Of a stretch of 64,000 bases of DNA, positions 1,036-62,884 are shown in pieces. The notes beneath the pieces are model-generated. The model did not search any database. It saw only the letters and a list, made by a program, of their open reading frames with translations, and was not told the origin of the DNA. A program made the position numbers and the translations under genes. The stretch's first letter is position 1. Each line of letters opens with the position of its first letter. Origin of the DNA: Polytrichum commune (lineage: Eukaryota; Streptophyta; Polytrichopsida; Polytrichales; Polytrichaceae); NCBI GenBank assembly GCA_950295325.1, contig OX485805.1, positions 55,700,758-55,764,757 of the forward strand. The letters run 5' to 3'.

Positions 1036-1059
1036 TCTTCCCCATTACACACATTGTCA

Positions 1060-5169: not shown

Positions 5170-5170
5170 C

Positions 5171-11256: not shown

Positions 11257-11261
11257 TTTAG

Positions 11262-20499: not shown

Positions 20500-21035
20500 C
20501 ACTATATTCGTTAATTTGAGACTTTTTGGGCATTTTGAGACAATCACAGAAATAAGAACAAGGATAAATGGAACACATATTGGAGAAAGTTGTAAGATGC
20601 GAACACTTTGAAGCGGGTGTTTAGAACAAGAACCCCATTAATAACTCATATTTGGGATTGTTTAGGGTGGGCAATCCAAACCTTAGGCCAAGTTGAAGGG
20701 GAAATCTTAAAACATTTATATTATCGCACAAAAACTTGTATGAATATGGTTTAGGTAGCGCAATCCAAACCATAGATCATATTGAAGGGGAAATATGTGA
20801 ACCAATATAATATAACATACAAAATATTCCAAACTCATATTTGTGATGGTTTAGGTAGGGCAATCCAAACCTTAGACCATATTGAAGGGGAAATCATGTG
20901 ACACTTATATTATTGCAAAAAAACATACAAATTATGGCATGTAAAATGCATAGCATGCTAACACCACACATCCATTGGATAGTGCGACCCAAAATGTTCT
21001 TGCCTATGGCTCACAACCCTACGCCTACTATGGCC

Positions 21036-21855
21036 TATCTAGCCTCGGAGACTACCTCTTTTTCTTTTGCTTCATTTTCTTTTGTTTTTTTTTCTTTTGC
21101 CTCTTTTTCTTTTGCCTCTTTTTCTTTTGCTGCGGCTTCTTTTGCTCGCATTGCTTCAACATTCCTGAAAATCTCCGCCCCGCGACTATAGCCATTCTTG
21201 GGGTGAGCGCCAACAATAACACATTTCGGATTCCGTCGGCCGCCCGAATTATACGACGAAGAATTCGAATACGATGAAGTGGACTGTCTTGCATTCCTGG
21301 TCATGGAGTAGAAACGCTCCAACTCAACGGACGCACTAGACCGCATAGGTTTACGGGTGGGAGCAACCTGCAACGCGTGAATGCAAGACCACATGTGTTA
21401 GTTTAGGGAGGAAGACCCAAACGTGTCACACTTTCATTTTTTAAGTGCGGGATGATTGTAATGCGCGGATAACCATGTTTTTTTTTGGGGGGGGGGTTCA
21501 CCTTGTCACCGGGGGCGTTCCCGTCGGAGTTGGCGAGGAGGGGCAATGCGTCCCGCAAAGGAATAGGAAGGGTGCCACTCTTCGTAGGCCGAGCGTCCAT
21601 CCGCAGCCGCCGTTGAGGTGTATTACTGCCGCCGGGCCGAGAGGGGGATGTCCGGACGCATTTGCGATTTATGCCCTTGAGCGGCGACGGGGACGGAGAT
21701 CGCCGGAAGATTTGCTTGGGTGGGGGGCTATCGATGACGCCGGCGTCGATAGGCTCCTTGGAGTAGTCGATGGTGGACGCGGCATCGTAGACGGTCTCGT
21801 AGAAGAAGCTCCCCAAGTTTGATTCGCTAACGATGTCAATCGAGGGCTCCAAACG
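21036..21855 (-). CDS. Hypothetical protein with charged C-terminal repeat, at least two exons
   Basis: One exon starts after an acceptor (CCCATCAG) at about 21855 and ends before a GTGAAC donor near 21502. The next starts after GCGTTGCAG near 21363 and ends at the stop near 21035. The two exons join in frame. The first part is Pro- and Ser-rich (DSPPPKQIFRRSPSPSPLKG); the second contains a tyrosine/serine-rich stretch and ends in repeated KEKEAKEKEAKEK-type charge clusters likely to form a helix. The only upstream in-frame start in the exon is not ATG, so a 5' exon is probably missing from my model. No family recognised. It lies just downstream of the phosphatase-like gene, on the same strand. 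Confidence 0.45.
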
Positions 21856-21973
21856 CTGATGGGAAAATTAAAACAAACAAAACCCAAGGGGAGGGGGGGA
21901 GGGGGGAGCATGTGAAAATCGATATACAATTGAGGCATAATATATCACACACAATGGCACACCATGTAGTATC

Positions 21974-22790
21974 TCAAATGAGTTTATTATATTTTGCATG
22001 AGAGTACAACTCTCTGTACATATAGTCCTTTGGATCCATGTATCTTTCGCCTATCGGATTACAACTAAGGAACCGGGGCACGGGTAGTCCGCTCCCCACG
22101 AGCGTTTGAAGGTACTTAAGTAGGTCTAACAAAAAGCGGTCTCGGACCTTCTCGACCGTCCACGTGGGGCAAACTATGAAGTTCGAGGTCGGGTTCAAAA
22201 TGTTTTTGGAAGCGCTGTCGTCCACCATCAACGTGTTGTCACGGGTGGGGCGAACGTCGTAGGGACAGCCAACCATGGTTGGACGCTGGTCCCATACGAC
22301 TGGCTTCAAGACCTTAAGAAACTGGTTTACGGCGGGGTTGTTGGGCTTCTTCACAACCTTGCCCTCGGGGGTGTATAATGTTTTACAAGAATCCTGTCCT
22401 AGGACCAAGCACGGGGGTTGGAGTCCCTTGAAGATGAACTCCACGACGGCCTGGGTGTTCTCGGACTTCATGGAGCTCCACACGATCACCCACCATTTGG
22501 ATAGGGCGACCTGCAGGAAGCGCCGAAGCCACGGGCGGAGGTACACTAGCTTGCTTTTGATGTACGCGGGGGGACCATCGTAGTTCCCGTCCTCGGGCTT
22601 GCAGAAAGGCACCGTGGGGACCTTGGGACAGTGCACGCATTGGACGAGGACCCCGTTGAGGTCTAGCACCAGGAACCGTGTCTTGGGCGGCGGAGACGGG
22701 GAGGGCAAAATCGGGGGGACCACCACGCTGTCCTCCACGCTCCTCGGGGAGGACCGGTGGGGAGCCACGACGCTATGCTCCGATCCCTGC
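21974..22790 (-). CDS. FCP1/NIF-like HAD phosphatase domain protein
   Basis: The frame shows the HAD-fold order of FCP1/small C-terminal-domain phosphatases. FLVLDLNGVLV (Asp about 36 counted from a GTG at 22768) is followed by a YLRPWLRRFL segment, VIVWSSM as motif II, and VDDSASKN as the acidic motif IV (about 182-189). Normal members use DxDx(T/V); here the second Asp is Asn (DLNG), as in some plant NIF-like proteins, so catalysis may be altered or lost. No ATG opens the frame. An acceptor (GTCGCCGCAG) just before 22790 suggests an upstream exon I could not place. A minus-strand AATAAA overlaps the stop region near 21983-21988. It lies between the ParB-methyltransferase gene and a hypothetical gene, all on one strand, and is presumably cargo of the same element. 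Confidence 0.7.
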
Positions 22791-23233
22791 GGCGACGAGC
22801 GAGAGAAGGCGGCGAGGACTATGTTATGCTATGTTTAATTCAAGCAGAACGGAAATTTTGTGCAAACACAAGAAGAATTGGACCATTGGTGGCAACAAAA
22901 ACATACAAGGGGAACAACATACATTGGGACACGGATGCTAACATATGGGCGCCAAAAATAATAATTTTATTGTTACAAATCTCTATGTACAATTTGATGG
23001 GGGGGCGCGGTGAACGAGGGCATTCACACTATCCTAATTGTACATCTACAAAATTGGTTGCGCGCCGCCAAGGTTGAGCGTAGTCGAGTGAGGTGAGACG
23101 AAGGGGATCGCGGGGGGAGCACGTTGTTGGGTGCGTCGGGGGGGTGTAGTTCCTCATAGCTAGGGGGGACAAGACCACGCCAACAAGACAATGACCAAGG
23201 AAGTTTGGGTCGGTCGACCCAAACTGGGAGGGC
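22791..23233 (-). other. 3' flank of gene F with polyadenylation signal and one palindrome
   Basis: Between the stop of gene F and the phosphatase-like exon, a minus-strand AATAAA (TTTATT at about 22974-22980) could end gene F transcripts. A TTTGGGTCGGTCGACCCAAA copy lies at about 23205-23224, just beyond the stop. No other gene is seen. Confidence 0.5.
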
Positions 23234-26200
23234 TCAGTGTGTTACCTCGCCCTGGTCATGTCTCGACGATGTGGATGCCTCCACCGTCCCCGGTGCCCCA
23301 CCTCTCTCGCCACCGCCTTCTCCGCCTACGTCAGGGACCTTGTCCTGCAAAGGTTGAGCATCAGGCCCTTGTCCTAAACCAATCTCCGCATATGCATCAT
23401 GCATGGGTTCATCGATTTGGTTAGGATTAGAGGTATCACCAGGCCCTTGGAGGCCTTCAACATCTAACATGGTTGTGTCTCTTTGAGACACAAGTTCGTC
23501 AAGGGAGGACTGAGCTGCTCCGGGGTTTGGGTCGGGCGACCCAAACTGTCCTGCATCGGGGGAGGCGCCTTGGGGCACTACAGTCGAGGGTGGGTTTGGG
23601 TCGGTCGACCCAAACATCCTGGGATCGTCCGGCTGGTGAGGGGGCGCCATCACTATGGGGGGCCGTAGTGGTGGAGGGCCCAGCGGGGAGGAGGCTCCAG
23701 ATATGCGCCAGATGTTAGGATCGTCCACTTGTTGGACCGGCGCGTACGGAACATGGGCCGGCCGCATCATGTGCTGGAAGCTGAATGACCCTTGCGACAC
23801 TGGGTGCTGAGGGATGCTCTGCGCTGGGAAACCGGGGGGCAAGTGCGGAAACGAGCTGGACGGAGCCACCACCAATCCTTGCGCCCACATCCCTTGTATG
23901 ACTTGCGATATCAAGTCGGCGCTGGATGGAGGTTGGGCCATCGCCCTTAGTCTTTCTTGTTCCAAGAGGAGAGCCCTCAGCTCTGCGACCTCGTTCCGCA
24001 CGGAGGGTTCTTCCGCGGCAGCCTTCTGCAAGCGGACGCGCTGCTCCTCGTCTCTACGCATCTTCTCGTTGGCTTCCTCCACAGTGAGGACCTCGGGTTT
24101 CACCCTAACCATGCCTGCGAACGCTGTCGGGGAGGGGGGATCCGATCTGAGCCGTTTGGCGAGCTCAATGTCGTCGTCATCCTCGCTGCTAATGGCAATG
24201 GTCTCCTCCAATGCGTAATCGCCATAGAGCTTCTTTCCCTTTAACTTCCTCCTCTCCCGGAACGTGGCAGTCGCGTCCCTGGAGTACATGTCCCTCGCAT
24301 CGTCCACCGTAAGGACGGGCATCATCTTACTCTGCGGGGTTGCCACACGCATAGCCTTCTTCCTCTGAGGGGCTTCAGATTCTTGCGTGAATCCCGTTGC
24401 CCCTTCCTCCACATCCCCCTCCTTTTCCTCCTCTCCGTGTTCTTCTTCTTCCTCCTCCTCTTCCACCTCTCCACCTCCTGTACGGGACGGATTGCCCGGA
24501 TGCAACCCGACTAGAGGTTCGGGTAATTGGGTTGTTTCCCTCATCGCAATTTCTTCCGGGTTGATCCGCCTCGCCCTATCAAGAGGGTTCTCACCCCCCT
24601 CAACAACCTCGTCCATGTAGCTTCCCGGGATCCAATCGAGGATATCCATCTTCTTTGCCAGCGATTTCTGCGTCCTGTAAAATTGCAGATCGCCATCCTC
24701 TATGTACGAGTAGATGTTCAACCCCAACATCTACACAATCCAAGTTATATAGAAATTAGAATGTGCAAGACAAAAACCAAGACCAAAAACAATATCTAGT
24801 TTGGATCGACCGACCCAAACCAAGAGAGAGCCTAGTTTGGGTCGACCGACCCAAACCAAGAGAGAGACTAGTTTGGGTCGACCGACCCAAACTGCGCAAG
24901 AGCTAAATAATGTAACTTACCATGGCAGCATAGAGGGGTTTTGAGCCCCCGAACACGTTGAAGATACAGTCCCCTCTCCTAGTCAGCGTCCTCAGCATCC
25001 GCATGTAGAATTCCATCCGCAGCTCATCTGCAGGATAGTTTGCGTATTTGGCCTCGTCGTATAGGCATTTGCTGGAACCTAACCCATCTGGAACTTGGAA
25101 GAGCTTGTCCATCCGGGATATAGGGTGGTTTGGCACCTTCAACAACTCCGCTTTGTACACGAAGTACAAACACAGGACGTTGACGACCTTGGTCTTCTTG
25201 TCCTTCAATGACGTGTAGGCCCCCTCCGCCGGTGCGGCGATGTAGTGAGACTTGGAGACTGCATACTCCGGCTGCAATTTCCGGACAAGGTCGTACACCT
25301 GCTCCGCCCTCCTATCCTCGACTATCCATAGCCAGACATCAATCTCCCTGAACTTAGGACTCGCATAATCGACGAACTTAGATAGGAAGGGGTCGTAAAA
25401 CAGTGTGCTCATCGTACCCTCAAATGAGCTTCCAGGAATGTTCCTGAAATCTATCATTCCGAATGGGAAACGCCCCCCTGCTTTCGTCCTTATCGCCATT
25501 CTGGCGTCTTGACCTAGCCAGCCCTGAATTTTCAAAGGTGACAAGGTGACAAGGTTGAAGTAAGCGTCCCCTTCAAACTGGACAATCTTCTTCTCCTTGA
25601 TGAAGTTCGAGAACGCACGCGCTGTGTGATCTGGAAGCGCCCGGTTCTTCCCACCCTTCACCATCTTGGCCCGCAAGAAGTCATCCCCCGCTTCCCTTAT
25701 TAGAGCCGCCATGGAGGCACTGGTGAACTTATATTCAGCTTTGAATGCTCTCCAGTTAGCCTCATGAACCTCGCCGTCCACGACAATATTCTTCTCCGGC
25801 AGCAATTTATGCAGCTCCTGCACTATAGTTGTCTTCTTTTTCCTATTCTCCGTCCATTCCTTCATGGTGTAGCATGAAGGGACGAAGGATTTGGGCTTTA
25901 AGAAGACAATCTTCGGGTGCACCCAGCACCTTTTCGCCGTGGGCGTGAAATGCAGGATGTGCGCCGCCGCCTTCTCCATCTCCGTCTCGAAAAGGCCTTG
26001 AAGAGTTCTAAAGAACTCTCTCACGAGAGGCTTCATTTGTTTGAAGCGCGTGGTTTGGTTGAAGAAAATTCCTGTGTCCGGGTCGATGAGCTCACCCGTC
26101 TCATGCTTCTCAAATACACTATTCCACTTCACCCAAACGGAGTCGGATGCTGTGATTAAATAAATCTCCCCTCTAAGCTCGTTGTATTTCTTCTGTTTGT

Positions 26201-28130
26201 GACTAACATTATCAATGGAGGAGAATTTATTTATCATTTGGTATTTGAAGTCCTGCATGTGATCAAAACAATCATTTGAATGCATGTTAGATATGAACAT
26301 GTGATTTCCAAAACATATCATGACCAGTATCTGCACCAAGAGTTTGGGTCGATCAACCCAAACTAAAAAACATGACTGCAACAAGAGTTTGGGTCGATCG
26401 ACCCAAACTAAAAAAACATGACTGCAACAAAGTACACAAATAAAGCTGCAAAAGGAGTTTGGGTCGATCGACCCAAACAATACTCACCTCCCACTTGGGA
26501 TTCTTGTCCTTCGCATTCTCCCTCTCCTTGGGAGGCCTACCGTAGAACTCCCACACCTCCCGCGAGGCCATGATATTCCTTATCCAGGAAGCTTGGTAGG
26601 CCATTTTCTTATTCCCCATGTTAAAGTAACGGAAGATGTCGCTCAGTCGGGTCTCATCGTCAGACCACACCACCAGTGCCTTCCACACCTTCAACTTCTC
26701 CTTCTGATGGTTGGGATCGTCCCACTCAGTCATCAGTTGGATTTTCTTGGAAGCCTCAACGCTGTGTTGGCCGTCTATGAGCCAAAAATCGCCTTTCTGA
26801 ATTGTCGCCCACATTTCAGGGGTAGGCATTTTCTTCAGTCCCTGGGGCATCACTACAATGGTTTGCCTGTCGTCTTTGAATTGTTCGCTAACGATCTGCG
26901 CGATTATCCAATCGACGTAGGCGTCTTCTTTTGCCCGGACACATTTTTCTGGTGGCGCGAGATGACACTGACTGATGTTCACGTCGAATTTGAAATCCCT
27001 GCCCATGAAAAAGCAATGGGAGCACTTGGTCGTGAAATTGTTCACAATTTTTTGGATCTCCCCTGCATCCACTTCCTGCCCTGGCTTCGGCATGCGCAAT
27101 TCTGGAGAGACTGGCTCGTCAGTCATCACAGATGACTCTCTCGCCCTCTTGGAGGGAGTTGTTTGGCGGCTGCCAGAAGGCGTAGGAATCTGGCTATCCG
27201 CCGGTGTCTCCGATGGAGTGGTTCGTCTTGAGCTAGGCGGGACTGGTTGCGGCACCCTCACCGATTGAGGCCTTGACGACCCTGCACCTTCCTCAGTGGG
27301 TACCTTCCGCCTGACGGCTTGCTGAGACTTCGTTTTGCTCTGCAGGGCTTTGTTGAGCACGCTGATTGCATGCTTTAGTTTCGTAAACCGGCTCGAGACC
27401 TTTGTGTTCGATGTACTGGCATCGATGAAAATTGTCTCGGGTTTGATTACGTCAGGTTCGACACATGACTCCCTTGCATATGTAGCGTCAAAGGGTTCGA
27501 CGAACTGGTGCAGAAACATATGAGCATTCTGCACAGCGCTATTTTCAAGGATGACGTCTGCGTAGTCTCCAAAAGACTGGACCGACGCCACCTCCCATCC
27601 CGTAAGAGTCGCCCAGGTATGTTTTTCCACGGTCCCTACTTTGACAACGAATATCAGTTTGTAAATGGAGGTTTTTACTACTTGAATTGACCAGGCGAGG
27701 ACAAGCCCGTCCTTAGGGACATATGAGTCATCCTGAGGTGTTTCGTGCTCCTGCCATAACACGTTTGGCGCAAGCATGAACCACCTTTCTCCTGGTCTTT
27801 TCTTTGGGGCCATCTGCAAAGAAAGAAGCAAGGATGTTAGTTTCGGTCGTTCGACCCAAACTTCTTCACAATAGATTAGATGTCACGTGATGGAAGGGAA
27901 ATGTAATGCATCAACGCATTTATTTTTGGATTGTGTCTTGTTATTTTAGAACTTCATTTATATGTTTATATGGTATTTCGTTATCTTGGGTGGATTTGCG
28001 TTTTATATTGTCATCAAGGATTTCTTGAAAAGTTTATACTGTAGAGGTTGCGTTTGGGTCGACCGACCCAAACAGCAGGATGTGCTTTGGGTCGATCGAC
28101 CCAAACAACAGGCTGTGTTTGGGTCGTCTC
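23205..28130. repeat. Palindrome TTTGGGTCG-NN-CGACCCAAA scattered through gene F locus
   Basis: Copies lie at about 23205 (past the stop) and at about 23527 and 23588 (in exon 3, read in frame as FGSxDPN). Three are in intron 2 (about 24802, 24838 and 24870) and three in intron 1 (about 26342, 26388 and 26458). Others lie at about 27841 (5' side, degenerate), 28049, 28087 and 28108. The central dinucleotide varies (GT, AC, AT) while the nine-base arms are kept, as expected for a binding or modification site under constraint or for serial insertion of one sequence. Confidence 0.9.
23234..27813 (-). CDS. ParB/Srx-like domain fused to DNA-methyltransferase-like domain (gene F)
   Basis: Three exons join in phase 0: 27813-26488, 26252-24921 and 24730-23234 (GTGAGT and GTAAGT donors, TGCAG and TGTAG acceptors), about 1384 residues. 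A Ser/Pro-rich stretch (about 190-260) precedes a ParB/Srx-like domain (about 270-420): KFDVNISQ, then IVVMPQG, then WLIDGQHSVEAS at 344-355. This matches the family's GxxRxxA loop except that Arg is Ser. Exon 2 ends as a beta-class amino-methyltransferase: a motif-IV-like FRNIP (D710 to P715), and motif I NVFGGSK (about 874-880), with the acidic E897/D898 following in exon 3. DPPY is not conserved, so activity is uncertain. Exon 3 adds acidic, helical and Pro-rich regions. Both introns, the last exon and the flanks carry TTTGGGTCG/CGACCCAAA palindromes. Domain names rest on motif order and not on a database search. Confidence 0.7.
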
Positions 28131-29500
28131 CCCAAACTGTTCTATTTTAATATAGTTTTTTAAACTTGGCAAGTAGCATATACAATGCTTATGCATTGTG
28201 TATGCTACAACATTGTCAATTAAGAAACACATATTGGAACCCCTTGAAAAACAATACCTTTGCTGAGGGTTTCTGTTGTAGTCGTTGCAGATGGTTGCTT
28301 TTGAACAAGTGCTCTTCTTCGACTAAGACAAAATCAATGAATTCCTATTCGCAGACACGCTAAAACTCACAAACAACTACCAGAGATTTCAAACCTTTCT
28401 TGAATCTCTCAATAAACCCACAATCTCTCACACAACTCTTGAGTCTCTTCAGAATCACTCAAACAACAATTGTAACTCTCAAACAACAACTGAGTCTGTT
28501 AAAACAACAACTGAATCTCTCAAAACAATAACTAAATCTCTGAAATCACTTTTGTATCACTTTTGTATCATTTTTGTATCTGTTATAGAACTTCCTAATC
28601 TGACAAGCACTCACAAGCACTCACATGCACTCATTCGCACTTCGAACTCTCGCAAGCACTGCCTAAAGCTCACACAGAATGTTGGAAAACCCTTCAACAA
28701 TCTGGAAAACACTTCAACAATGCTATATATTGCAACACTAGTGCAATCTCCCGCTACAGCAAGAGAAGGGAGGGAAGGAGAAGAAAAAAGGGTGGAGAAG
28801 GAATGTAAAGAAAAACGCCACCCTGAATCGCCACGGCGCTTCAGGAGAGGCGGCGCTTCCACAAGAGGCGCGGAGCGAAAGGTTGGCGGGAGAGAGAGAG
28901 AGAAAGGAGGAGAATGCTTGGCGGCTGGGGTTTTGTTACCCTCGGGAATTGGCCCCCAACCGCGCGAATAGGGTGCCAACGTGATTAGGGCAGCAACGGG
29001 AATAGGGTTACGGGGAACCCTAACTCCCATCCCTCTAAGGAGTAAACCCTTAGCGGGTAGTACAATTTTGAATAGACTTTGGAGTAGCCTAAGGTATACA
29101 TCAAATGAGGTATTCTAAAAAACTAAACCATTTATACAACTAATACATCTTTACAACGCAACTTTATGCTAACACTAATACTTAATTCCTACTTACATGA
29201 CACCATTAACTAAATTTTCCAAACAAGTTGAAGTCATTGGTTTCTCGTTTGTTTGAGCACGTTAGAAAAAAAATACAATTACGTGCCAAATACAATAGAC
29301 TTTACCATTGATGCCAACAACTCACACAATATGCAATGAATTAAAAATACAATCCCCACCCCCCAACATGAAATTCGGAAATTGAGGATATTTGAATGTG
29401 GAGCCTAAATGAATACCTTCCCCAAGTGCATATTGTGAGGGTTTGGAATTGCATGATCTTTATTTCAAAATGCTAACATGCTCAAGTTTTATAGGGTATC
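27814..29500. other. Upstream region of gene F, no further gene
   Basis: This is the 5' side of the minus-strand ParB-methyltransferase gene. Copies of the palindrome lie nearest the gene. At 28370-28540 an ACTCTCAAACAACAACTGAG-like motif is repeated several times. A minus-strand TATATAG at about 28723-28729 is the best promoter candidate; a 5' untranslated intron would be needed to explain the distance to the ATG. The rest (29030-29500) is AT-rich and shows nothing I can name. Confidence 0.4.
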
Positions 29501-29509
29501 CCCTAGATA

Positions 29510-30300
29510 TTCACTTTGATGAATCACATAGTCGCCAATAAACCATGGATCGTGATATATGTACTTGGAATGTGATATAAAAGCAAATCGGAGAACCACA
29601 ACATCATATGAAGCCCTTCAAGCAATCATGTTGTTATTGAAGGTTCGCTCCAAGTATATTAGATAATGGCGCAAGACAAACTTGATATTGTTTGTATATG
29701 GAGGTAGCACTGAACAACTACAAGATTTGGGGTTTAGGGTTTAGGGTTTAGGAGTCAGGGTTATAACATATTAATCTATCCAATATTAACGTACAACATT
29801 GACTTATTGGTGAGAAGAGTCTTATAGGAAGGTTATAATAAAGATGATGTTGAGTATGTTAAGTTGTTATTTGGGACGTTTAAACGTGATATACTAATTG
29901 GTCTTGTGTTTATTCAAATAGCATTTCATGTTGTGGATGTTATTTGGACTTAGGGGTCTAACTTTGGATGTTTTGCTCCCTTTGATGAATCACATAGTCG
30001 CCAATAAACGTAAATCGGTTAAGCACAACATCAAATGAACCCATGCAAGCAATCGTGTTGTTGTTCATTGTTCCCTCCACGTATATTAGATAATGGAGAA
30101 AGATATAACAAATGTTGTTTGTATATTAAGAAGAGTCTAATAGGAAGGTTATAGTGACCACAATGTTGATCATGTGAATATGTTATTTGGAACGTCTAAA
30201 CATGATATACTAATTGGTGTATGGTTTAGTCAATACGTATAATTTCATGTAGTGGATGTTAGAAGGGTTTAGGGTTCAACTTTGGATGTTTTGTTCACAC
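29510..30300. repeat. Diverged tandem duplication, unit about 320-470 bp
   Basis: A block containing GATGAATCACATAGTCGCCA, then TATATTAGATAATGG, then a segment around GATATACTAATTGGT and AACTTTGGATGTTTTG, occurs at about 29515-29975 and again at about 29980-30296 with substitutions and deletions. The first copy carries TTTAGGG repeats near 29738. No coding content. Confidence 0.75.
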
Positions 30301-30394
30301 ACATTAGTAAGCTTGAAGTGAACTTGAGGATGGATTCAATTAGCATGGAAATATTGAACTAAAAAGCGACATTGGTAGTTAGTAGCCCCTTATC

Positions 30395-30920
30395 GACGTC
30401 CACATACATTCGTCATTGCCACACTTGCATGCGAGAGAAGAGGACAATATTGTAGGGTTTAGGGTTTAGGGATGACAACATATTATATATAAAAGCTCTT
30501 GTCACTTGCATTGTTGCAAATTCAGATTTGGAACAATAAATGAACTTTGTCATGACATAATTTGATTTCAAAATTAATAATTCCCCTTGCGAGGATCTTC
30601 ATAACCACTTTAACTATTGTATTTAGTGACTCTTACCATAAGGCGTTACACAATGTTTAGACTTCTTTTGTCTACATATTGGTTAATGCCATACCGTAAT
30701 GTTTGAGTTAAAGTAGATCAATATCATCATTTAATATGTATATGATGCATTAGGGTGACATTGTAGAAGTTTTTGTTTGATCCATATATTAATTTGAGAC
30801 TAGAGAAAGTCACAATTTAACGAATATAGTGTTACATACATTTATCATTGCCACACTTCCATGCGAGATAATAGAGCAATGTTCTAGGGTTTAGGGTTTA
30901 GGGGAGACAAATAAATAATT
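30395..30920. repeat. Two copies of a TTTAGGG-containing module around the right CACTA end
   Basis: CATTGCCACACTT(G/C)CATGCGAGA followed by a short spacer and TAGGGTTTAGGGTTTAGGG occurs at about 30414-30474 and again at about 30848-30902. The second copy begins a few bases after the inverted CACTA terminus at 30831, so the terminus lies between two related modules. These are interstitial telomere-type repeats and not a chromosome end. Confidence 0.65.
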
Positions 30921-32912: not shown

Positions 32913-32929
32913 CTTTCACTAGTGTTGGG

Positions 32930-50573: not shown

Positions 50574-51522
50574 ATGAAGGAAATAGGCAATTCACAACCT
50601 CCGACAACGGAACCATCTAAGAAAAAGAAGAGGAGGCGATCGTCTACACATTACACTGATAAGAAGAGAAAGACAGTGAGGACACAAAAGTCACAGGCAA
50701 GGAAAGCGCCAATTGAGGGCCGTGGGACGCCCGAGGATTTGAGCCAAAGCATAAAGGACCTGCGGAAACCTTCGTGGAGGTTAGACTGTGGGATTCGGCC
50801 TTTTCATTTATCACCGATTGTAGAAGAGGCGGACGGAAGTAAAGCGCAACCAATGGCAGAAGTGGAGGAGTTGGGAAACGACAGCATCCAAGAGGACTCA
50901 CGCGAAGAGACAAACTCTACAAGTGTCGTACGTATTCTTCGGGTTCTCCATATATTCAGTTGTTTGAGCACATAATGAAAATGGTAGAACATATTCAACT
51001 GTGAAACAACTTTTCTTTTAGATATTATGGTTTGTCATCATTGTTATAAACATTGTTTTATCTTAAATATAGGAAGAGGGGGGGAGTGGAGATAGTGGAA
51101 ATATCTATGAAGAAGACAACAAGGAGGTAGCACAACAAATTGAGAAGGCGTTAGAAGAGCGAGAACCGATGTCGGGACAACCAACGATTCAAGCAAGAGA
51201 AAAAATGAAGGCGTCCAAGAGGAAAGCGGCAAAGGAAGATCTGAAATCAAATTTGTTGGGAGGCCGCGAAAGAGCTGAAGGAGGAGACCCATGCGCAGAA
51301 ACCCTAAGTGTGGATGTTGTGACCCCTGCTTCAAGATTTCTGCGAAGCAAGGCGGGCGGAACACAACAAACATCAAGGCGAGGGCGTGGCCGCGGGAGAG
51401 GAATGGTGCAAGTAAACCTCGGAGATTCGAGAAGCACTCCAATATCGCCGACAGAGGACGGGACCTCGGAAGATAGTGGCGCCAATATAGGGGCTTCAGT
51501 GGAGGGCATACTCCAAATTCTG
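50574..51522 (+). CDS. Probable 5' exons of ParB-methyltransferase gene G (Lys/Arg-rich N-terminus)
   Basis: An ATG at 50574 opens a 118-codon exon ending at a GTACGT donor (50928). A second exon (51073-51522, 150 codons) starts after AATATAG and ends at GTAAGG. The protein is very basic at first (SKKKKRRRSS, a nuclear-localisation-like run), then acidic, then has an RGRGRGRG stretch like an AT-hook or RGG region. Both exons end in phase 0, and the exon at 56719 also starts in phase 0. The simplest model is that these are the first exons of gene G, with the palindrome array as a 5.2-kb intron. Alternatively they form a separate short gene ending at the TAG near 51595. RNA evidence would decide. 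Confidence 0.5.
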
Positions 51523-52821
51523 GTAAGGTGTCGGGATCTCGGCCAAGCTATGTTCGCCAACGTTTTTGCTTTCTATCACCTTGATTTCTCATAGTATTTG
51601 GAATATCAGCTTGACTTGCTTTCGGCCTTGTCTTTATTTGGGTTTAGGAACATGTTAGGAAAGGTATGTTTGTGCTTGAAAAATCAAAAGGTTATGTGCA
51701 CATCATGTTGCTCTCGGCCTTGTCTCGTTTTGTGTAGTGCACAAGAACGAGCTAGGGCAAGAGGCCTCGGATCCGAGGCCTCATTTTTGTGTAAGTTTGA
51801 GTATGTGAGAGGTAGGGTTTTGAGGGAGGTGAGGTTCTTGATTTCTCAACCTAATAGAATGTCAACTTTCTTGCTTTCTTGATTCCTTGCTCTCGGCCAT
51901 TTCTTCTATTGTGTAGTGCATAAGTGGGAGCCATAGGAAGAGGCCTCGGATCCGAGGCCTCTTATTTGTGGGTAGGTTTGTGCTTGAAAAATCAAAATGT
52001 TATGTGCACATCAATTGCTCTCGCCCTTGTCTTGTTTTGTGTAGTGCATAAGAAGGAGCTAGGGGAAGAGGCCTCGGATCCGAGGCCTCTTATTTGTGTA
52101 AGTTTGAGTATGTGAGAGGTAGGGTTTTGAGAGAGGTGAGGTTCTTGATTTCTCAAACTAATGGAATGTCAACTTTCTTGCTTTCTTGATTCCTTGCTCT
52201 CGGCCATTTCTTCTATTGTGTAGTGCATAAGTGGGAGCCATAGGAAGAGGCCTCGGATCCGAGGCCTCTTATTTGTGGGTAGGTTTGTGCTTGAAAAATC
52301 AAAATGTTATGTGCACATCAATTGCTCTCGGCCTTGTCTTGTTTTGTGTAGTGCATAAGAAGGAGCTAGGGGAAGAGGCCTCGGATCCGAGGCCTCTTAT
52401 TTGTGTAAGTTTGAGTATGTGAGAGGTAGGGTTTTGAGAGAGGTGAGGTTCTTGATTTCTCAAACTAATGGAATGTCAACTTTCTTGCTTTCTTGATTCC
52501 TTGCTCTCGGCCATTTCTTCTATTGTGTAGTGCATAAGTGGGAGCCATAGGAAGAGGCCTCGGATCCGAGGCCTCTTATTTGTGGGTAGGTTTGTGCTTG
52601 AAAAATCAAAATGTTTTGTCCACATCGATTGCTCTCGGCCTTGTCTCGTTTTGTGTAGTGCATAAGAAGGAGCTAGGGGAAGAGGCCTCGGATCCGAGGC
52701 CTCTTATTTGTGTAAGTTTGAGTATGTGAGAGGTAGGGTTTTGAGAGAGGCGAGGTTCTTGATTTCTCAAACTAATGGAATGTCAACTTTCTTCCATTTT
52801 TGATTCCTTGCTCTCTGCCTT

Positions 52822-55800
52822 GTGCCCCACGGGCGAACGCCCGTGGGCCATGTAACAAGTAACTTGGTTAGGCATGTCTTTATGAGGCACTTTGGTTGGT
52901 TCTGAGTATGTAAACTAGTTTGTGTGTGAGGCCTTGGATCTGAGGCCTCTCGGCCGAGGCCACTTGAGGTTTTTTGATTCAAAGTATAACTTGTATGAAT
53001 GAGGCACTTTGCTTGTTTTTGAGGATGTAAACTAGTTTGTGAATGAGGCCTCGGATCCGAGGCCTCTTTTATGTGTTCCAAAACAAGTGTAGAGAAGAGG
53101 CACTTTGGTTGGTTTTGAGTATGTAAACTAGTTTGTGAATGAGGCCTCGGATCCGAGGCCTCTTTTATGTGTTCCAAAACAAGTGTACGGAAGAGGCACT
53201 TTGGTTGGTTTTGAGTATGTAAACTAGTTTGTGTGTAAGGCCTCGGATCCGAGGCCACTTGAGGTTTTTTGATTCAAAGTATAACTTGTATGAATGAGGC
53301 ACTTTGCTTGTTTTTGAGGATGTAAACTAGTTTGTGAATGAGGCCTCGGATCCGAGGCCTCTTTTATGTGTTCCAAAACAAGTGTACGGAAGAGGCACTT
53401 TGGTTGGTTTTGAGTATGTAAACTAGTTTGTGTGTAAGGCCTCGGATCCGAGGCCTCTCGGCCGAGGCCACTTGAGGTTTTTTGATTCAACGTATAGCTT
53501 GTATGAATGAGGCACTTTGCTTGTTTTTGAGTATGTACACTAGTTTGAAAATGAGGCCTCGGATCCGAGGCCTCCTTTTAGTGCCCTCGATCAGCAGTCC
53601 CCTGGGAGTGGCTCCCGGGACTGCGAATGTTTAAACAGGCATAACTTCCTTGATTTTTGCCCAAATGGGGCAAGTGAGGTGTCCATCGGCATCTACATTT
53701 CACGTAGATGACGATAGAGTGGTTGATTGTTAGATTTGGAGACCACACGTGGAAGATATGGAGGTCTGAAGCTGCGGGGGGGGGGGGAAATGTGTTTTGT
53801 TAAGTGCATAAGTAGGAGCTTTGGGAAGAGGCCTCGGATCCGAGGCCTCTTTTTTGTGTCAAGGTTTGTGCTTGAAAAATCAAAATGTTAGGTTCATTTT
53901 TGAATTCTCTCGGCCATTTTCTGTAGTATGTATTTCATAAGGAGGGGCATTCGGAAGAGGCCTCGGATCCGAGGCCTCATTTTTGTGTCAAGGTATGTGC
54001 TTGAAAAATGAAAATCTTATGTTCATTTTTGAATGCTCTTGGCCTTCTTGTTTTGGGTAGTGCATAAGTAGGTACTTTGTGAAGAGGCCTCGGATCCGAG
54101 GCCTCATTTTTGTGTCAAGGTATGTGCTTGAAAAATGAAAATCTTATGTTCATTTTTGAATGCTCTTGGCCTTCTTGTTTTGGGTAGTGCATAAGTAGGT
54201 ACTTTGTGAAGAGGCCTCGGATCCGAGGCCTCATTTTTGTGTCAAGGTATGTGCTTGAAAAATGAAAATCTCATGTTCATTTTTGAATGCTCTTGGCCTT
54301 CTTGTTTTGGGTAGTGCATAAGTAGGTACTTTGTGAAGAGGCCTCGGATCCGAGGCCTCATTTTTGTGTCAAGGTATGTGCTTGAAAAATGAAAATCTCA
54401 TGTTCATTTTTGAATGCTCTTGGCCTTCTTGTTTTGGGTAGTGAATAAGTATGTGTTTTGGGAAGAGGCCTCGGATCCGACGCCTCATGTTTGAGTCAAT
54501 TTTATTTAAGAAAAATCAAAATGTTATGTTCGTGTAAGATTACTCTCGGCCTTCTTGTTTTGGGTACTACATGAGTAGGAGGTTTGTGAAGAGGCCTCGG
54601 ATCCGAGGCCTCTTGTTTGTGTAAGTTTGAGTATGTGAGAGGTAGGGTTTTGAGAGAGGCGAGGTTCTTGATTTCTCAAACTAATGGAATGTCAACTTTC
54701 TTGCTTTCTTGATTCCTTGCTATCGGCCATTTCTTCTATTGTGTAGTGCATAAGTGGGAGCCATAGGAAGAGGCCTCGGATCCGAGGCCTCTTATTTGTG
54801 GGTAGGTTTGTGCTTGAAAAATCAAAATGTTATGTGCACATCAATTGCTCTCGGCCTTGTCTTGTTTTGTGTAGTGCATAAGAAGCAGCTAGGGGAAGAG
54901 GCCTCGGATCCGAGGCCTCATATTTGTGTAAGTTTGAGTATGTGAGAGGTAGGGTTTTGAGAGAGGCGAGGTTCTTGATTTCTCAAACTAATGGAATGTC
55001 AACTTTCTTGCTTTCTTGATTCCTTGCTATCGGCCATTTCTTCTATTGTGTAGTGCATAAGTGGGAGCCATAGGAAGAGGCCTCGGATCCGAGGCCTCTT
55101 ATTTGTGGGTAGGTTTGTGCTTGAAAAATCAAAATGTTATGTGCACATCAATTGCTCTCGGTCTTGTCTTGTTTTCTGTAGTGCATAAGAACCAGCTAGG
55201 GGAAGAGGCCTCGGATCCAAAGCCTCCTATTTGTGTAAGTTTGAGTATGTGAAAGGTAGGGTTTTGAGAGAGGTGAGGTTCTTGATTTCTCAAACTAATA
55301 GAATGTCAACTTTCCTGCTTTTTTGGTTCCTTGCTCTCTGCCTTGTGCCCCACGGGTGAACACCCGTGGGCCATGTAACAAGTAATTTGGTTAGGTTTTA
55401 ACATCATCAAATGTGTGCCCCACGGGTGAACACCCGTGGGCCATGTAACAGGTAACTTGGGTAGGATTTAGCATCATCACGGGGAGATGTCTCCATGTCA
55501 AATATTTTTAAAAATTATGATTTTTTTTTCTCTATATTCATAACTATTGATTATATCTTTTGTATATTTTTTTGAAATTTTTTGTCATCTTCATTTTTTC
55601 TAGTAATTGTTTTAGTTGAATTCTGCGTCATTCTAGGTAGAAATGGTATGTTTTCTAGAAAAATATGGTCATCAAATTTGGTCATGATATTTTACTCCGT
55701 AATAGATATCATGTATATCTACGTCCCAAAAACATTTGAGAAAATTTTGACCCATTTTGGTGATGCAACTTGGCAATGGAGTGACCTCCCCTGGAACATC

Positions 55801-55840
55801 ATCAAATGTGAACCTCACGGGTGAACACCCGTGAGCCATG
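52822..55840. repeat. Second palindrome CCCACGGGTGAACACCCGTG, four dispersed copies
   Basis: The hairpin-forming sequence with ten-base arms around a central AA occurs near 52827 (CCCACGGGCGAACGCCCGTG), 55348, 55418 and, degenerate, near 55812. Each is followed by GCCATGTAACAAGTAA-like sequence. The copies flank blocks of the AGGCCTCGGATCCGAGGCCT array. Confidence 0.8.
53588..53790 (+). repeat. Diverged LTR-A-like fragment inside the palindrome array
   Basis: CTGGGAGTGGCTCCCGGGAC, then AACAGGCATAACTTCCT and GGCATCTACATTTCACGTAG, parallel about 200 bp of LTR-A (4500-4690) but with many substitutions. It is much older than the other LTR-A copies in the window. It marks a related ancient insertion or a sequence shared by the two repeats. 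Confidence 0.7.
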
Positions 55841-56718
55841 TAACAAGTAAATTGGTTAGGTTTTAAAATCATCAAGGAGGGGCATTTGGAAGAGGCCTCG
55901 GATCCGAGGCCTCATTTTTGAGTCAGGTTGTGTGCTTGAAAAATGAAAATGTTAGGTTCATTTTTTAATTCTCTCGGCCATTTTCTGTAGTATGTATTTC
56001 ATAAGGAGGGGCATTCGGAAGAGGCCTCGGATCCGAGGCCTCATTTTTGTGTCAAGGTATGTGCATGAAAAGTTAAAATGTTATGTTCATTTTTGAATGC
56101 GCTTGGCCCTCTTGTTTTGGGTAGTGCATAAGTAGGTACTTTGTGAAGAGGCCTCGGATCCGAGGCCTCATTTTTGTGTCAAGGTATGTGCTTGAAAAAT
56201 GAAAATCTTATGTTCATTTTCGAATCCTCTCGGCCTTCTTGTTTTGGGAAGTGAATAAGTATGTGTTTTGGGAAGAGGCCTCGGATCCGAGGCCTCATGT
56301 TTGTGTCAATTTTATGCTAGAAAAATCAAAATGTTATGTTCGTGTAAGATTGCTCTCGGCCTTCTTGTTTTGGGTACTACATGAGTAGGAGGTTTGTGAA
56401 GAGGCCTCGGATCCGAGGCCTCATTTTGGAGACAATGTATGTGCTTGAAAAGTCAAACTGCTATGTTCACATAAGATTTCTCTCGGCCTTTTTCTTTTGG
56501 GTAGTGCATAAGGAGGAGGTAGGAAAAGAGGCCTCGGATCCGAGGCCTCTCATTCGTAGGTAGGTTAGTGCTAGAGTTGAGCACTTGACTTAGCATTCGG
56601 CCATTTCCATTTGTAGTTTGCTCTCGGCCTTGTATTGTTTTTGTGAGGATTTGTTTCTTTATAGTTACGAAGTTATTGACTTTTCTTTGTGAAATTCTCA
56701 TTTTCTCCATGTTCTTAG

Positions 56719-59700
56719 GATATGGACTCTTCACAGGTTGCGCAATCGCAACCCCAATCTGGAGAGGATGTTGTTCTTGCGGCCCCCGCGGTTGAAGTTG
56801 AAGCTGTGCAGGTTGAGAGTCTCAATTCGTAGGGCCCATTACAAGTAGAGGTGAGTTGGATAGTTGTTGAATAATTTGTTAAGCAAGTTTTTTGAGTTCT
56901 AGCTTTCTAAGCATGGTTTTATTGTTTGTGTTTTTGTTAGGCTCTCGCAATGAGCGAAGATGCCGTTCAAGCAGTTGCCGACACGGATCCCGTGGTGTGT
57001 GAGCTTGAGCTTCGGAAATCACAAAAGGAGGACTCCATTGGTGTTATCCAACGCCTTCGGATTAAGCCAACATGTAAGTCCCGCTTATCCATTCCCTTAT
57101 GCCGCTTGAGAGCCCTCCCTCTCGTCCGTCCTATCAGTGAGGTTGAGGTGCAGCGCTTGGAATGTGAATTTGTAATGGGATACCGAGAGGGTGATCGGGT
57201 TCTTTACGTGTCTTCTTTCAACGACGTTCCCGTGGACCTCCCCATTCCCCCTGGCATTATGGCCTCTTGGAGCCCTCTCTGGCAAGAGGCCTCCGCAGAA
57301 TTTGACGCCAAGCTCAAGGAGGATCCGGATCTTGCACATTTCGCCGGGAAGATGTTCTTCGTCTGGGAAGGCAATCATCGTCTCACCGCTTGGTGGAGAC
57401 ACATCAATAACCACCACGCCGATGACAAGAGTTGGCATATCTCGGTGGATTGCATTGTTGTTGACCCTAGAGGATACACCGGTATATTCCTCAATGCCAT
57501 GAGCGACATTAATTGGTAAGCTCATTCATTTTTTTCATTCATTTTTCATTTTTGTTTCAATTCTTTTCCATTATTTTCAGCTCACGTTCCTCACATATTT
57601 TTTCTCAGGTCAACCAAGCATGATTATGTCAAGGCAAACATTCCGGCCAAGCTCCTTCGAATCCGCACTTTTGGGAGGTTAGAGTTGTCCACCTTCAAGG
57701 ATCTTATATCGCCATCTGACTACAAAGCATGCGAGAAGATAAAGGAGAGTCGCCCAACTTGGTACACCTTGACCGCGGATGTTTTCGTTAAGTTTCTTTA
57801 CAAGGTATGGTTTTATGCATTCAATCATTTAGAGCTTCCAACATAGATAATTTCCATACCGATTATATGAACTCACAAGGTCATTTCTTGCAGAGAGACA
57901 TTTCGGCTCAAGCAGACCTTGCAGTGAGGCATTACCGTGAGACCACACCCGTTGCGGAGAGGTCGGCCACTGAGATTTGGAATGTTATGACCAAGGCCCA
58001 GGAGAGGACAATCAAAAGTATTCGGGCCCGTTCTTTTGAGAAGTACATATCCGTTGCACACCCTGACAATGGAGAGGATTTCTTTCATGAGGTACTCTTT
58101 TGAACTCAAATCACTCTTGAACGCAATTCATCCAAATCACTCTTCAACTCTATTACTCTTTTGAACTCAAATCATTTTTATTTTGTGCACAGATTGACCG
58201 TCATTTTAATGAGTTCTCTTCGACGGATATGACAATTGAAAAATTGCAAAAAATTGTCACATGCCCGGTCGAAGCTTCGTTCAAAGCTAAGTGGCTTCAC
58301 TGGTGGAACGCCCCCCTTCGTGAAAGGTTAGATAACAAGTTCCCCGTCGACAAGCCTATGAGGGAGAGGGCTTTGGACGACTGGCTACACAAGGCGTCTT
58401 TCTGGGCTCAAGTAAATCCATTCCTCGGCCTTCTTCATTTTCATTTTCCTCTATTCCATTTATCTCATATCTAATCATCTCCTTCTCTGCAGTTGGAGAA
58501 AGAAGTCGCGGTTGAAATTGAGACCTTAGAGGAGAGCCTCTCCGTCTACATTGATTGGGACGCATCAGAAACTATCTTGCGCCCTCGTGAGTACGTTGAT
58601 CATTGGCGGATTGTCCTTTGGGACAAGGCCTTCAAGCCTTATCTCGGCGATAAGCCTGACATCGCATTTGCCAAAGGTGATAATCTCTTGGAGTTCGAGG
58701 AGGGGGCTCTCGCTATCAAGCGTGTAGCCTATCGGTAATACATCTATCCTCCACTTTGCACCTCTCCTTAATGTCATTTCTTGCTCGTTTTGTTGGTTTT
58801 CTTACATTCTTGTTTTGTCATGTAGGTATATCATGAGAGAATTGGTTGTGAAGAATGCATTGGCCTCATCTTCCTTGCCGGACTACCTCTCGGACTGGGT
58901 GAATATTTTTTCTAGCCTCTGCGTGTATACGACCGCGCAAACAAACAAGTTTTCCGAATTGCACTTGCAGGGTGGTGGATGGTACTTGGATTGTGCTGCA
59001 GGATTTGTCCCCGGGGAAGAGAAGGCTTTGTTTGCTAGCCTTGTGGGTAGTGCTCTGGATAATAACATTGTTACCTTGGAGGACCCTGACATCGTTGAGC
59101 TTCCCCCTCCTCCTCCTAAGGCACCAAGGAGAAAGGGCAGAGCAAAGAAGACCGCCACTCAAGCATCTTCCCAAATTCTCACTCGGTCTGCTTCTAAGAC
59201 CCCGGTTGAGCCACCCACCCTTCCACACAGTCCATCTATCGCTCCCTCCGTTGCTCCCTCTCTTGCCCCTTCTGTTACTCCATCTGCATTTCATCCACAA
59301 TCTCTTGCCACTCCATCTCATAGTGGCACTTCTCTCCTCTCTTTGCCTCGCAAGAGGAAGGCCGCTCTCTTGGATACCAGTGCCACCTCTTCGGATGCCA
59401 CTAACACGCTTACCCTCATCGAAAATGTGGACATGGTTCAACTAATGCTGGATTCCGAGGTTGCCGGAGGTCCCCTCCCCGCATATACCCGCATCCAAGA
59501 GTTCATTGCCAAGGTTTGTATACTTGCCTTCGTCAATTCTCAATTTTTTTTCCTTTGCTTTGTTTATTTCTTTCCTTCTTGTTTTCTCATGAAGTTTCAA
59601 TTGCAGGTTGGGGCAGGTCGTTCCCGTGTGAACACCTCGACTACAACTCACAAGGGCCTCGATTTGCTCTTCGCCGACATTCCCGAAAATTTGCCGGTGC

Positions 59701-60922
59701 CGAACATCTCCACCGATGTTCCTGCTTGGAACAAGCTCCATGAATCATACTATGAGTGTCTTTTTGCATTTGCGAAATCTAACCTCTATGATCATGGTGT
59801 CCTTGTTCTTGCCCATTGTGCGAGTGCCAGTGTTTCTAGGAGTATTTTCGATTGGGCACACACTTATGACTTCTACGTCGCGGAATATTGGTTTGGAATG
59901 AATGATTTAGACCTCCAATCTCCCGTTGTTCCCTCTGGAGTGGTAAGCAAGTCTCCCTCTCTTCCCTTTCCGTATTGCTTATCATTTCAATTTCAATTCA
60001 ATTTCAATTCCATTTCATTTCAATTCAATTTCATTTTCATTGTTGCAGACTCGGAAGTTCAACATCAAAGTTCTTGTTCGTGTTAACTCCGTTCTTAGAG
60101 TGCGGGAGGAGGCCATACAAGAGTATGGTTACAACCTCCAACGAGATGGATGGTTGAATACCTTCACCGATGAGAAGAGCCAGACGATGCGCAGTGATGG
60201 GGTACCTTGGCGAGGTGCCCGTGAGAAGCATCCTGTTTTTTTTTCCATCCTTCTCGCTACTCTCACCGACAAGAATGATGTTATTATGGACTGGCAGTGT
60301 GGTGTAGGTACGCCTTCTTTTTCAACTTCATCCTTACTTTGAATTTTCCATTATTTTTCCTTGACTAGTTTTCATACTAACATTTTACCTCTCTTTGCTT
60401 TAGGTGGTTCGATTACAGCATGTCGCTCCCTTGAGCGGCATATTGTGGCCCTTGAGAGTGACCCCGTCATTTTCAATTCACTCCTACTCCCCATGCGCGA
60501 TCCCCAGCCTGCGCGTATATCTCGCTCAGTTGCCGCACCGTCTACATCTATCTTTGATCCTCCTCAAAAGATGACCAAGAGGGCATTCGGATTTCTTTGT
60601 GCGTAAGTTTGCTTTCTATATTTTGCCATGTTTGCTTTGATTTCAAATTCTCATTTTCTAGTGTCATCATGTTTCTAATCCTTTTGCTTGGGTGTTTAGA
60701 GAGCCAGCGGAGGTCGCAGTCATTCGTCGAGACATGTTTTCAAGTCCTCCGAAGCCGTTTGAGCTTCCCCCGTATGCTAGTGCAATGGCGGATTGTTTTG
60801 CGAAGGCGGAGTCCCCATCTCCTCCTCGCGTTCGTCATTTCTCGCGTGGAACACGAAATCTTTTCTTGTTAGAAGCAAATGAGGGTGAGGAGAGTGATAG
60901 GGAATGTTCTCCAAGCCCTTAG
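56719..60922 (+). CDS. ParB/Srx-like domain fused to DNA-methyltransferase-like domain (gene G)
   Basis: Eleven exons with GT-AG borders join cleanly: 56719-56850, 56941-57515, 57609-57804, 57894-58091, 58193-58411, 58493-58734, 58826-59513, 59607-59942, 60049-60307, 60404-60602 and 60700-60922. The first has TAG at 56830-56832; from the ATG at 56950 the frame gives about 1041 residues. A ParB-like region (about 45-190) reads LSIPLCRLRALPL, then an ISEVEVQRLECEFVMGYREG helix, then VWEGNHRLTAWW (138-149), fitting the GxxRxxA nucleotide-binding loop of ParB/Srx folds. The C-terminus has motif IV as DLLFADIPE (722-730, with DIPE for DPPY) and motif I as DWQCGVGGS (896-904), followed by the acidic ALESD (917-921): the beta-class DNA amino-methyltransferase order. 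Between them lies a long basic/Pro-Ser region. The altered motif IV leaves activity open. A polyadenylation signal AATAAA is at 60978-60983. Confidence 0.75.

Positions 60923-62853: not shown

Positions 62854-62884
<31 letters not shown>

Follow-up and report, generated by a model that had tools for sequence, protein, structure and literature searches.

Giant DNA transposons of Polytrichum commune carry putative ParB-methyltransferase-like genes and palindrome arrays whose type tracks protein clade

The palindrome arrays of a 64-kb window of the Polytrichum commune genome (the window being the whole stretch of DNA that we analyzed) lie within giant DNA transposons, and among homologs of one transposon gene across the genome, palindrome type tracks the clade of the putative ParB-methyltransferase-like protein. 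Such joint change of a palindrome and a putative DNA-binding protein suggests a private address code for self-recognition. The anatomy of the elements is shown by an uninterrupted copy, by their termini, and by target duplications, which bears out the preliminary suggestion that the system is tied to mobile elements.

Palindrome families in the window

The palindromes are real and occur far above chance. The F palindrome, TTTGGGTCG-NN-CGACCCAAA, has 27 matches in the window at ≤3 mismatches (shuffle mean, 0.01), of which 20 are exact, 6 have one mismatch, and 1, at 20974, is doubtful, with three mismatches. The G palindrome, AGGCCTCGG-NN-CCGAGGCCT, has 31 matches at the same limit, 27 of them exact (shuffle mean, 0.00). 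Exact sites number 9,731 (F) and 2,137 (G) across the 408-million-base genome; the reversed control pattern gave 0 in each case. A third family, the D palindrome (TTTACGGACGCGCGTCCGTAAA), is present in 10 copies at ≤4 mismatches between 16348 and 19016. The arrays are tandem repeats; arms are kept while the central two bases vary, and the GATC in the middle of the G palindrome was rejected as a target of methylation because the center varies. All ten listed palindrome families contain CpG. A search of Rfam at the gathering threshold and a tRNA search gave no match. In a scan of nine element-linked palindrome families (≤3 mismatches), the site-by-element matrix for the window was nearly diagonal: 27/27 F sites fell in the F element, 33/33 sites of the AGGCCTCGG type (type A) in the G element, and 9/9 D sites in the D element.

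Three elements, one inside another

The left part of the F element (20498 to 33477) begins with the terminus AACACTATATTCGTTAATTTGAGACTTTTTGG at 20498, and three genomic copies begin to resemble it no more than one base away from this position. Its right part (62918 to 64000) contains a single F palindrome (62973) and the beginning of a DUF7869-type gene (ORF 63173 to 63820), with long terminal repeat sequence from about 63756 onward; the palindrome at 62973 belongs to the F element past a MULE-like insertion, which corrects an earlier reading. Together the two parts contain gene F, an NLI/CTD-phosphatase-like gene, the DUF7869-type gene, and all of the TTTGGGTCG-NN-CGACCCAAA sites of the window. 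The phosphatase-like gene (21974 to 22768, minus strand; PF03031, E = 1.9e-14) was found in 3/3 fetched F copies, one of which has a stop codon in it. A complete F copy measures 16,952 bp, with the starts of its 25 exact sites ranging from element position 2,690 to 12,950.

Gene F (23234 to 27813, minus strand; 1,384 amino acids) has three exons (27813-26488, 26252-24921, and 24730-23234) whose ends were set by eye. The preliminary description had gene F surrounded and penetrated by about 28 palindromes, and the 27 matches agree with it: introns 1 and 2 and coding exon 3 contain sites, others directly follow the stop codon or lie upstream of the start codon, and a block of them occupies 31602 to 33398; 25 of the window's 26 sites with ≤1 mismatch fall between 23204 and 33398. 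All three of the other F copies that we examined have the same palindrome. Gene F is under purifying selection, with dN/dS values of 0.059 to 0.078 between diverged copies (dS, 0.74 to 1.42) and 0.14 to 0.17 between closer ones. Stop codons do occur among the fetched F copies, which we count against the explanation that we favor below.

Inserted in the F element is a MULE-like element (33478 to 62907) that carries gene G and has retrotransposon insertions of its own. It is flanked by matching copies of a 10-bp target duplication, GACCGGAACC, at 33468 to 33477 and 62908 to 62917 (plus strand), a length within the 8- to 11-bp MULE range for this one insertion, and the F copy at C1:1178k runs continuously across the insertion point, without the insertion. 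Its inverted ends share GTATGTGAGCGTAGAGCGGAGAGCGGAGA, with the outermost 11 bases matching poorly. The MULE-like transposase gene (46582 to 50293, minus strand) consists of two ORFs with a SWIM-like CxCx(n)CxH recognized by eye; a Pfam scan of this transposase gave neither a MULE nor a SWIM match, and one homolog matched the SWIM profile weakly (E = 0.075).

Gene G is transcribed divergently from the transposase gene, on the plus strand. Its 5' exons (50574-50927 and 51073-51522) are mutually in frame; downstream exons span 56719 to 60922 (56719-56850, 56941-57515, and nine more), exon ends having been placed by eye with splice signals and reading frame as guides. Exon 56719-56850 as drawn contains an in-frame TAG. 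The G palindromes (51762 to 56548) lie in the intron 51523-56718, between the in-frame exons 51073-51522 and 56719-56850; gene G had been thought probably to span an array of about 30 copies, and indeed the whole array, 31 sites, is inside this one intron. The locus C1:2150k has the same MULE-array-G layout with different palindromes.

The left part of a third element, D (14072 to 20497), has the terminus AACACTATATTCGTTAATTGGAGACTTTGG, of the same kind as the F terminus, and presumably extends to 20497, where the F element would have interrupted it. Its DUF7869 gene (14729 to 17885, minus strand; PF25273, E = 1.7e-40) comprises three ORFs that are probably exons, and part of the ORF at 16836 to 17885 is 49 to 52% identical to the F element's DUF7869 copy at 63173. 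Nine D palindromes are upstream of this gene and one is within it (16348 to 19016).

CACTA/EnSpm transposons are defined by target duplications of 3 bp and by CACTA at the very start of their ends, and they carry TnpA motif arrays. The F and D elements resemble them in having CACTA within their ends and motif arrays in the element. However, both start with AACACTA, one complete F copy has a 4-bp target duplication (ATAA), the array is internal, and DUF7869 is the only transposase-like domain in the F and D pieces scanned (E = 1.7e-40 and 3.2e-41), in which no EnSpm-type transposase domain was matched; on these points they depart from CACTA/EnSpm.

Palindrome type follows protein clade

The preliminary description had proposed co-variation of palindrome and protein, and 22 G homologs elsewhere in the genome gave a positive result. 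Homologs with ≥72% identity to G have AGGCCTCGG (9/9 loci); those with 62 to 68% identity have CCCTCTCGG in 9/11 and AGGCCTCGG in 0/11; those with 59% identity have ATCCCACGG (2/2). No second type among these three was found at any of the 22 loci. Twelve loci were sampled once the types had already been defined, and 4/4, 5/7, and 1/1 were as the clade predicts. The two remaining loci of the 62 to 68% group had no site within the 1.9 kb read, two others (L062 and L065) show two sites apiece when ≤4 mismatches are allowed, and in L046 the only sites are degenerate and were overlooked by the de novo scan.

Between AGGCCTCGG loci, arms are 87 to 97% identical, a figure partly determined by the scan's own mismatch limit, and flanks 11 to 30 bp out are 21 to 38% identical (55% between the window and L052); the 10 bp adjoining the arms retain a residual similarity of 22 to 64%. 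Both arms differ jointly between clades. Of the first 50 exact G sites listed, 46 have a scored G exon within 10 kb, always one of the AGGCCTCGG clade (manual count). Exact CCCTCTCGG sites number 2,064 genome-wide (control, 0); of the first 50 listed, 26 have a scored 66%-identity exon no more than 10 kb away and 0 have a AGGCCTCGG-clade exon nearby. The sites with no scored G exon within 10 kb were 4 of these G sites and 24 of these CCCTCTCGG sites (22 in one cluster), scoring having covered 150 of 1,281 G candidates; F candidates number 1,226.

This co-variation was established on G homologs, the F sample being three copies with one palindrome, and it is partly due to the descent of whole elements. 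What stood of the original proposal is that different proteins go with different palindromes among G clades (22 loci); strict one-to-one pairing, each gene with its own array, did not, since MULE-like elements with distant G homologs carry the F palindrome as well. Of the first 100 F sites listed, 81 are in three F elements and 19 in four MULE/G2-type loci (manual count). F is thus not the sole owner of its palindrome: the G homolog in the sharing elements has no sequence homology to F, and a direct comparison of F with G found none. Some elements hold two palindrome families. A G3 and a G2 homolog at C1:470k have four AGGCCTCGG-type sites between them, and these sites have no assigned owner, which also counts against our favored explanation.

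Putative domains of F and G

The ParB and methyltransferase identities of F and G are putative, based on motifs and weak profile matches. By eye, ParB-like motifs are GNHR in G (exon 56941-57515) and DGQHS in F (exon 1); methyltransferase-like motifs follow in the next nine exons of G, and a methyltransferase-like motif I spans the exon 2/3 junction of F. Pfam scans of the F and G pieces scanned gave no ParB match, and the PHROG ParB profile matched F weakly (E = 0.097). For one G homolog, a methyltransferase identity has moderate support: its exon L043:3351-3626 matched phage DNA methyltransferase profiles (phrog_67, E = 8.4e-4; phrog_3008, E = 2.6e-3) and PF01555 (E = 0.092), while the same methyltransferase profiles did not match F exon 2. 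The catalytic motif, read by eye at its inferred position, is DFRN in F, DIPE in G and G3, and QFPD in G2. None of the four fits the N4/N6 methyltransferase pattern D/N/S-PP-Y/F/W, and because the motif is degenerate in all four proteins read, F and G may have lost methyltransferase catalysis. AlphaFold models of the ParB-like exon of G (4 alignment rows; pLDDT, 39) and the ParB-like piece of F (3 alignment rows; pLDDT, 36) were both unsuccessful and went into no fold search. There was no match in a viral contig search or in a phage search with F exon 1, a phmmer search of the PDB with three exons gave nothing meaningful, and an NCBIfam search gave weak or irrelevant matches only.

What might read the palindromes

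On balance, with a modest lean in its favor, we prefer the explanation that the F and G accessory proteins form a self-recognition or anti-silencing module like that of VANC, built from a different protein and binding its own palindrome as a dimer. In this view each element combines three parts: a transposase-like gene; the accessory gene F or G, which is transcribed divergently and codes for a protein with ParB-like and methyltransferase-like features; and its own palindrome array, placed in introns and promoter regions of the element's own genes. Dimeric binding would suit arms that are kept around a variable central dinucleotide, and the bound protein would mark its own element family or shield it from host silencing. 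As in VANC systems, short motif arrays lie in the elements' own introns and upstream regions and diverge with the protein clade. We know of no resemblance of VANC to ParB or methyltransferase proteins. We infer the role of F and G as binders, as well as any effect of binding on chromatin or silencing and any modification chemistry.

It is unlikely, though the strongest competitor, that the palindromes are sites for the transposase, or a TnpA-like partner, in transposition, with the ParB-like gene incidental. Motif arrays to which a transposon protein binds near CACTA ends are a known precedent, and the MULE gene at C1:2150k, where the palindromes differ, is only 42 to 50% identical to that of the window (main matches); since whole elements descend together, and the single pair of loci compared shows divergence of the transposase as well, the transposase could be the binder. 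Against this, the arrays are internal (positions 2,690 to 12,950 in the complete F copy; mid-element and intronic in G), on which ground we rejected subterminal transposase sites, and the F palindrome is common to DUF7869 and MULE-like elements with different transposase-like genes. That same sharing between unrelated element types, the CpG in all ten listed families, and the location of sites in introns and near divergent gene starts would fit recognition by host transcription factors or silencing machinery, which several families of transposons might exploit or be trapped by. Yet within this one genome different clades of a single protein family go with different sites, which is unexpected for a single shared factor, and we consider this a little less probable than the transposase. 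Least probable is that the arrays are neutral tandem repeats passed down with element lineages, co-variation reflecting common descent alone. They are tandem repeats, and whole elements are inherited as units; even so, flanks between same-clade loci are at or near background where arms still match (in part by the mismatch limit), and between clades both arms differ together while the central dinucleotide varies.

Relation to known systems and significance

Transposon-borne ParB-methyltransferase proteins have already been published: the giant transposon Sola1-1_Ec32 of Ectocarpus encodes a ParB-like and DNA methyltransferase accessory protein (PMC12477816). That element belongs to superfamily Sola-1, in contrast to the DUF7869 and MULE-like elements here, and unlike its accessory protein, as described there, F and G appear to have a degenerate catalytic motif; the word "palindrome" is absent from the main text of that paper (PMC12477816). 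ParB-methyltransferase fusions also occur in phages (PMC12704722). Our literature search found no description of clade-specific palindrome arrays (Iyer 2011 and Petroll 2025 being outside its scope).

In Arabidopsis, VANDAL transposons, which are of the MuDR/MULE type (PMC12730594), encode VANC proteins that target their own family via short motifs; these are tandemly repeated in introns and upstream regions, and motif and protein coevolve (PMC5735166). The VANC21 motif has 9 bases in a single-orientation array, whereas the sites here are palindromes, and loss of DNA methylation has been demonstrated for VANC (PMC5735166), whereas for F and G an anti-silencing effect is a prediction.

Clustered palindromes as proposed targets of a putative ParB-type domain recall bacterial ParB-parS, although the setting there is a chromosome or plasmid and here a transposon, with the ParB fold predicted from motifs. 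A bolder and more doubtful reading is that of a eukaryotic parS-like code, in which ParB-type transposon proteins that also have a domain derived from a methyltransferase, possibly without catalytic activity, would load at their own clade-specific, CpG-containing palindromes and shield or mark the element; many orthogonal pairs would evolve by coupled change, and an unrelated transposon would sometimes capture them, the F palindrome being an example.

If the accessory protein does read the palindrome, one genome would hold a natural series of protein-site pairs (nine families were scanned), which would help to work out how a ParB-type domain reads DNA. The elements would then represent a second, differently built answer to the problem that VANC solves, sequence-specific evasion of silencing by a transposon, and would point to a possible function for the ParB-methyltransferase proteins known from algal transposons.

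Palindrome type follows the clade of G

F and G, accessory genes of two transposons, encode putative ParB-like and methyltransferase-like proteins. The preliminary description paired each with its own palindrome array, and for G we found that the palindrome does co-vary with protein clade. From the 150 scored G exons, we hand-picked 10 that span identities and read the 4 kb upstream of each; as a second, independent sample, we read 1.9 kb upstream of 12 more loci (every 12th table rank plus rank 150; rank 48 was skipped because it was already among the first ten). Palindrome types were defined on the first ten loci and the window; identities compare the ParB-like exon with that of the window's G. 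AGGCCTCGG-NN-CCGAGGCCT occurred in 9 of 9 loci at 72 to 99% identity, CCCTCTCGG-NN-CCGAGAGGG in 9 of 11 at 62 to 68%, and ATCCCACGG-AT-CCGTGGGAT in 2 of 2 at 59% (a single copy in one); the second sample alone gave 4/4, 5/7, and 1/1, respectively. Within the 62 to 68% group, L046 has only degenerate copies, missed by the de novo scan, two copies at ≤4 mismatches are present in L062 and two in L065, and L061 and L064 have no site in the 1.9-kb stretch read. None of the 22 loci held a second of the three types. Single stray matches to other palindrome families were seen in L049, L062, and L065; shuffling the twelve loci gave 22 matches over 20 rounds and nine families. The first ten loci were ordered perfectly by identity, an arithmetical chance of 1 in 1,260 under random labels; given the relatedness of these loci and their use in defining the types, this is no proof of selection.

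More distant G homologues are accompanied by still other palindromes: GTGTCTCGG, as well as TTTGGGTCG and one CCCTGTGCG site, occur at C1:470k, and TTTGAAGCC and GGGTTTCGG occur together just right of the window (L040, C3:55764758-55774757). TTTGGGTCG and CCCTGTGCG also share a G-type element at C1:2150001-2168000 (L038 and L043); some G-type elements thus hold two families simultaneously. Four AGGCCTCGG-type sites at C1:474.7k (L037, 4657-5044) lie between two other G homologues and have no assigned owner. CpG is present in all 10 palindrome families listed, at least twice in 9.

In pairwise comparisons of AGGCCTCGG loci, the arms are 87 to 97% alike, a similarity partly fixed by the scan's mismatch limit; the next 10 bp are 22 to 64% alike and flanks 11 to 30 bp out 21 to 38%, except for window-L052 (55%). 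Flanks of F sites score 0.30 to 0.36 between F loci, versus 0.28 for random pieces. The informative part is the matched sites within unmatched surroundings.

Distribution of sites in the window and genome

The clusters themselves are real: the window holds 27 F palindromes (≤3 mismatches; shuffle mean, 0.01) and 31 G palindromes (shuffle mean, 0.00). Across the 408 Mb (64 contigs) surveyed, exact copies number 9,731 for F, 2,137 for G, and 2,064 for CCCTCTCGG, with none for the reversed F and G patterns or the CCCTCTCGG control.

By hand count, the first 100 entries in the list of F sites comprise 81 within three F elements and 19 from four loci of MULE/G2 type (G2 being a distant G homologue). 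For G, proximity counts use the 150 scored exons of 1,281 candidates: 46 of the first 50 distinct sites listed lie ≤10 kb from a scored exon (C1:2258164, 12940403, and 13973542; 98, 82, and 95% identity), and 4 do not. Of the first 50 exact CCCTCTCGG sites, 26 surround scored exon C1:16461491 (66%), another 22 cluster together at C1:24.59 Mb away from scored exons, and 2 are single; none of the 50 lies near a scored exon of the AGGCCTCGG clade.

Anatomy of the elements

Apart from gaps, the F element copy at C1:1178k runs collinear to window positions 20498-33481 and then directly to 62909-63758; in the C1:2110k copy, the array joins directly to the equivalent of 62971-63758. Because these copies read across, gene F and the F sites belong to one transposon, together with the phosphatase-like gene and the DUF7869-type gene at 63173, and the 29 kb absent from C1:1178k (window 33478-62907) is an inserted element. 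The C1:2110k copy is complete (16,952 bp), with 28-bp inverted ends AACACTATATTCGTTAAATTGAGACTTT, a 4-bp target duplication (ATAA), and 25 exact F sites starting at element positions 2690-12950. The NLI/CTD-phosphatase-like gene (window 21974-22768) is present in the window's element and three fetched copies (dN/dS, 0.07 to 0.20). Two F palindromes lie inside coding exon 3 of F (window 23526-23614), encoding FGSPDPN and FGSTDPN. Modules within one copy pair differ strongly in dS (copies L031-L036): between the window and C1:2110k, dS is 0.735 for F exon 1 and 0.072 for the DUF7869-type exon, which suggests that F elements are mosaic.

The inserted G element is flanked by a 10-bp target duplication, GACCGGAACC, and its inverted ends match in part. 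Its MULE-like gene is on the minus strand, with G divergent from it about 0.3 kb away. As had been suspected, G spans its array, which lies entirely within intron 51523-56718; a second palindrome type, CCCACGGGTGAACACCCGTGGG with close variants, is interspersed there in four copies (52826-55835).

A third F-type terminus at 14072 borders a region (14072-19016) that holds a further DUF7869 gene (E = 1.7e-40) and a third palindrome family, TTTACGGACGCGCGTCCGTAAA (10 copies at ≤4 mismatches); we infer that the F element inserted into this D element, whose own accessory gene, if any, would fall outside the window. Inverted stretches of about 650 bp at 114-764 and 62244-62876 are 83% identical, and the former may be the end of another MULE-like element. 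Positions 1-14071 also hold two CCCTCTCGG-type sites. The window appears eukaryotic, with genes needing splicing, a Ty3/gypsy-type polyprotein, and, by eye, TTTAGGG-like repeats.

The F and G proteins

Diverged copies of F exons gave dN/dS of 0.067, 0.078, and 0.059 at dS of 0.74, 0.79, and 1.42, respectively, and two closer comparisons gave 0.14 and 0.17; synonymous sites are saturated between F exon 1 and C1:614k. Of 1,226 genome candidates for F exon 2, the best 95 were scored (89 to 100% identity), 76 of them stop-free by hand count; the 150 G exons scored span 59 to 100%.

Identification of the ParB and methyltransferase domains from these sequences is weak. ParB-like motifs were recognized by eye (GNHR in G, DGQHS in F), and the stretch of F that includes DGQHS has a weak ParB-like match in PHROGs (E = 0.097). 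An exon of one G homologue matches phage DNA methyltransferases in PHROGs (E = 8.4e-4 and 2.6e-3) and, weakly, PF01555 (E = 0.092). Pfam found neither domain in the window F and G exons scanned, and neither AlphaFold model of the ParB-like pieces was usable. Since the expected catalytic-motif position reads, by eye, DIPE in G and its distant homologue G3, QFPD in G2, and DFRN in F, the methyltransferase-like enzyme may be catalytically dead or altered.

A possible self-recognition module

The sampled G clades each have their own palindrome type, but the F palindrome is shared with a G/MULE family. Three results chiefly speak against the model in its simple form: this sharing, the divergence of the transposase-like gene as well, and the weak domain calls. 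PMC12477816 already describes giant algal transposons encoding ParB-methyltransferase proteins, suggested to bind and modify their own element. Our search of the open-access literature found no description of clade-specific palindrome arrays accompanying such proteins. The layout resembles that of VANC and its targets in Arabidopsis VANDAL elements (PMC5735166), where arrays amplified as tandem repeats likewise lie within introns and close to the starts of divergent genes, differ per clade, and change along with the protein. Given this shared layout and clade change, and the algal proteins, the arrangement is by analogy most likely a VANC-like self-recognition module, in which the putative ParB-type protein would bind the palindromes of its own element.
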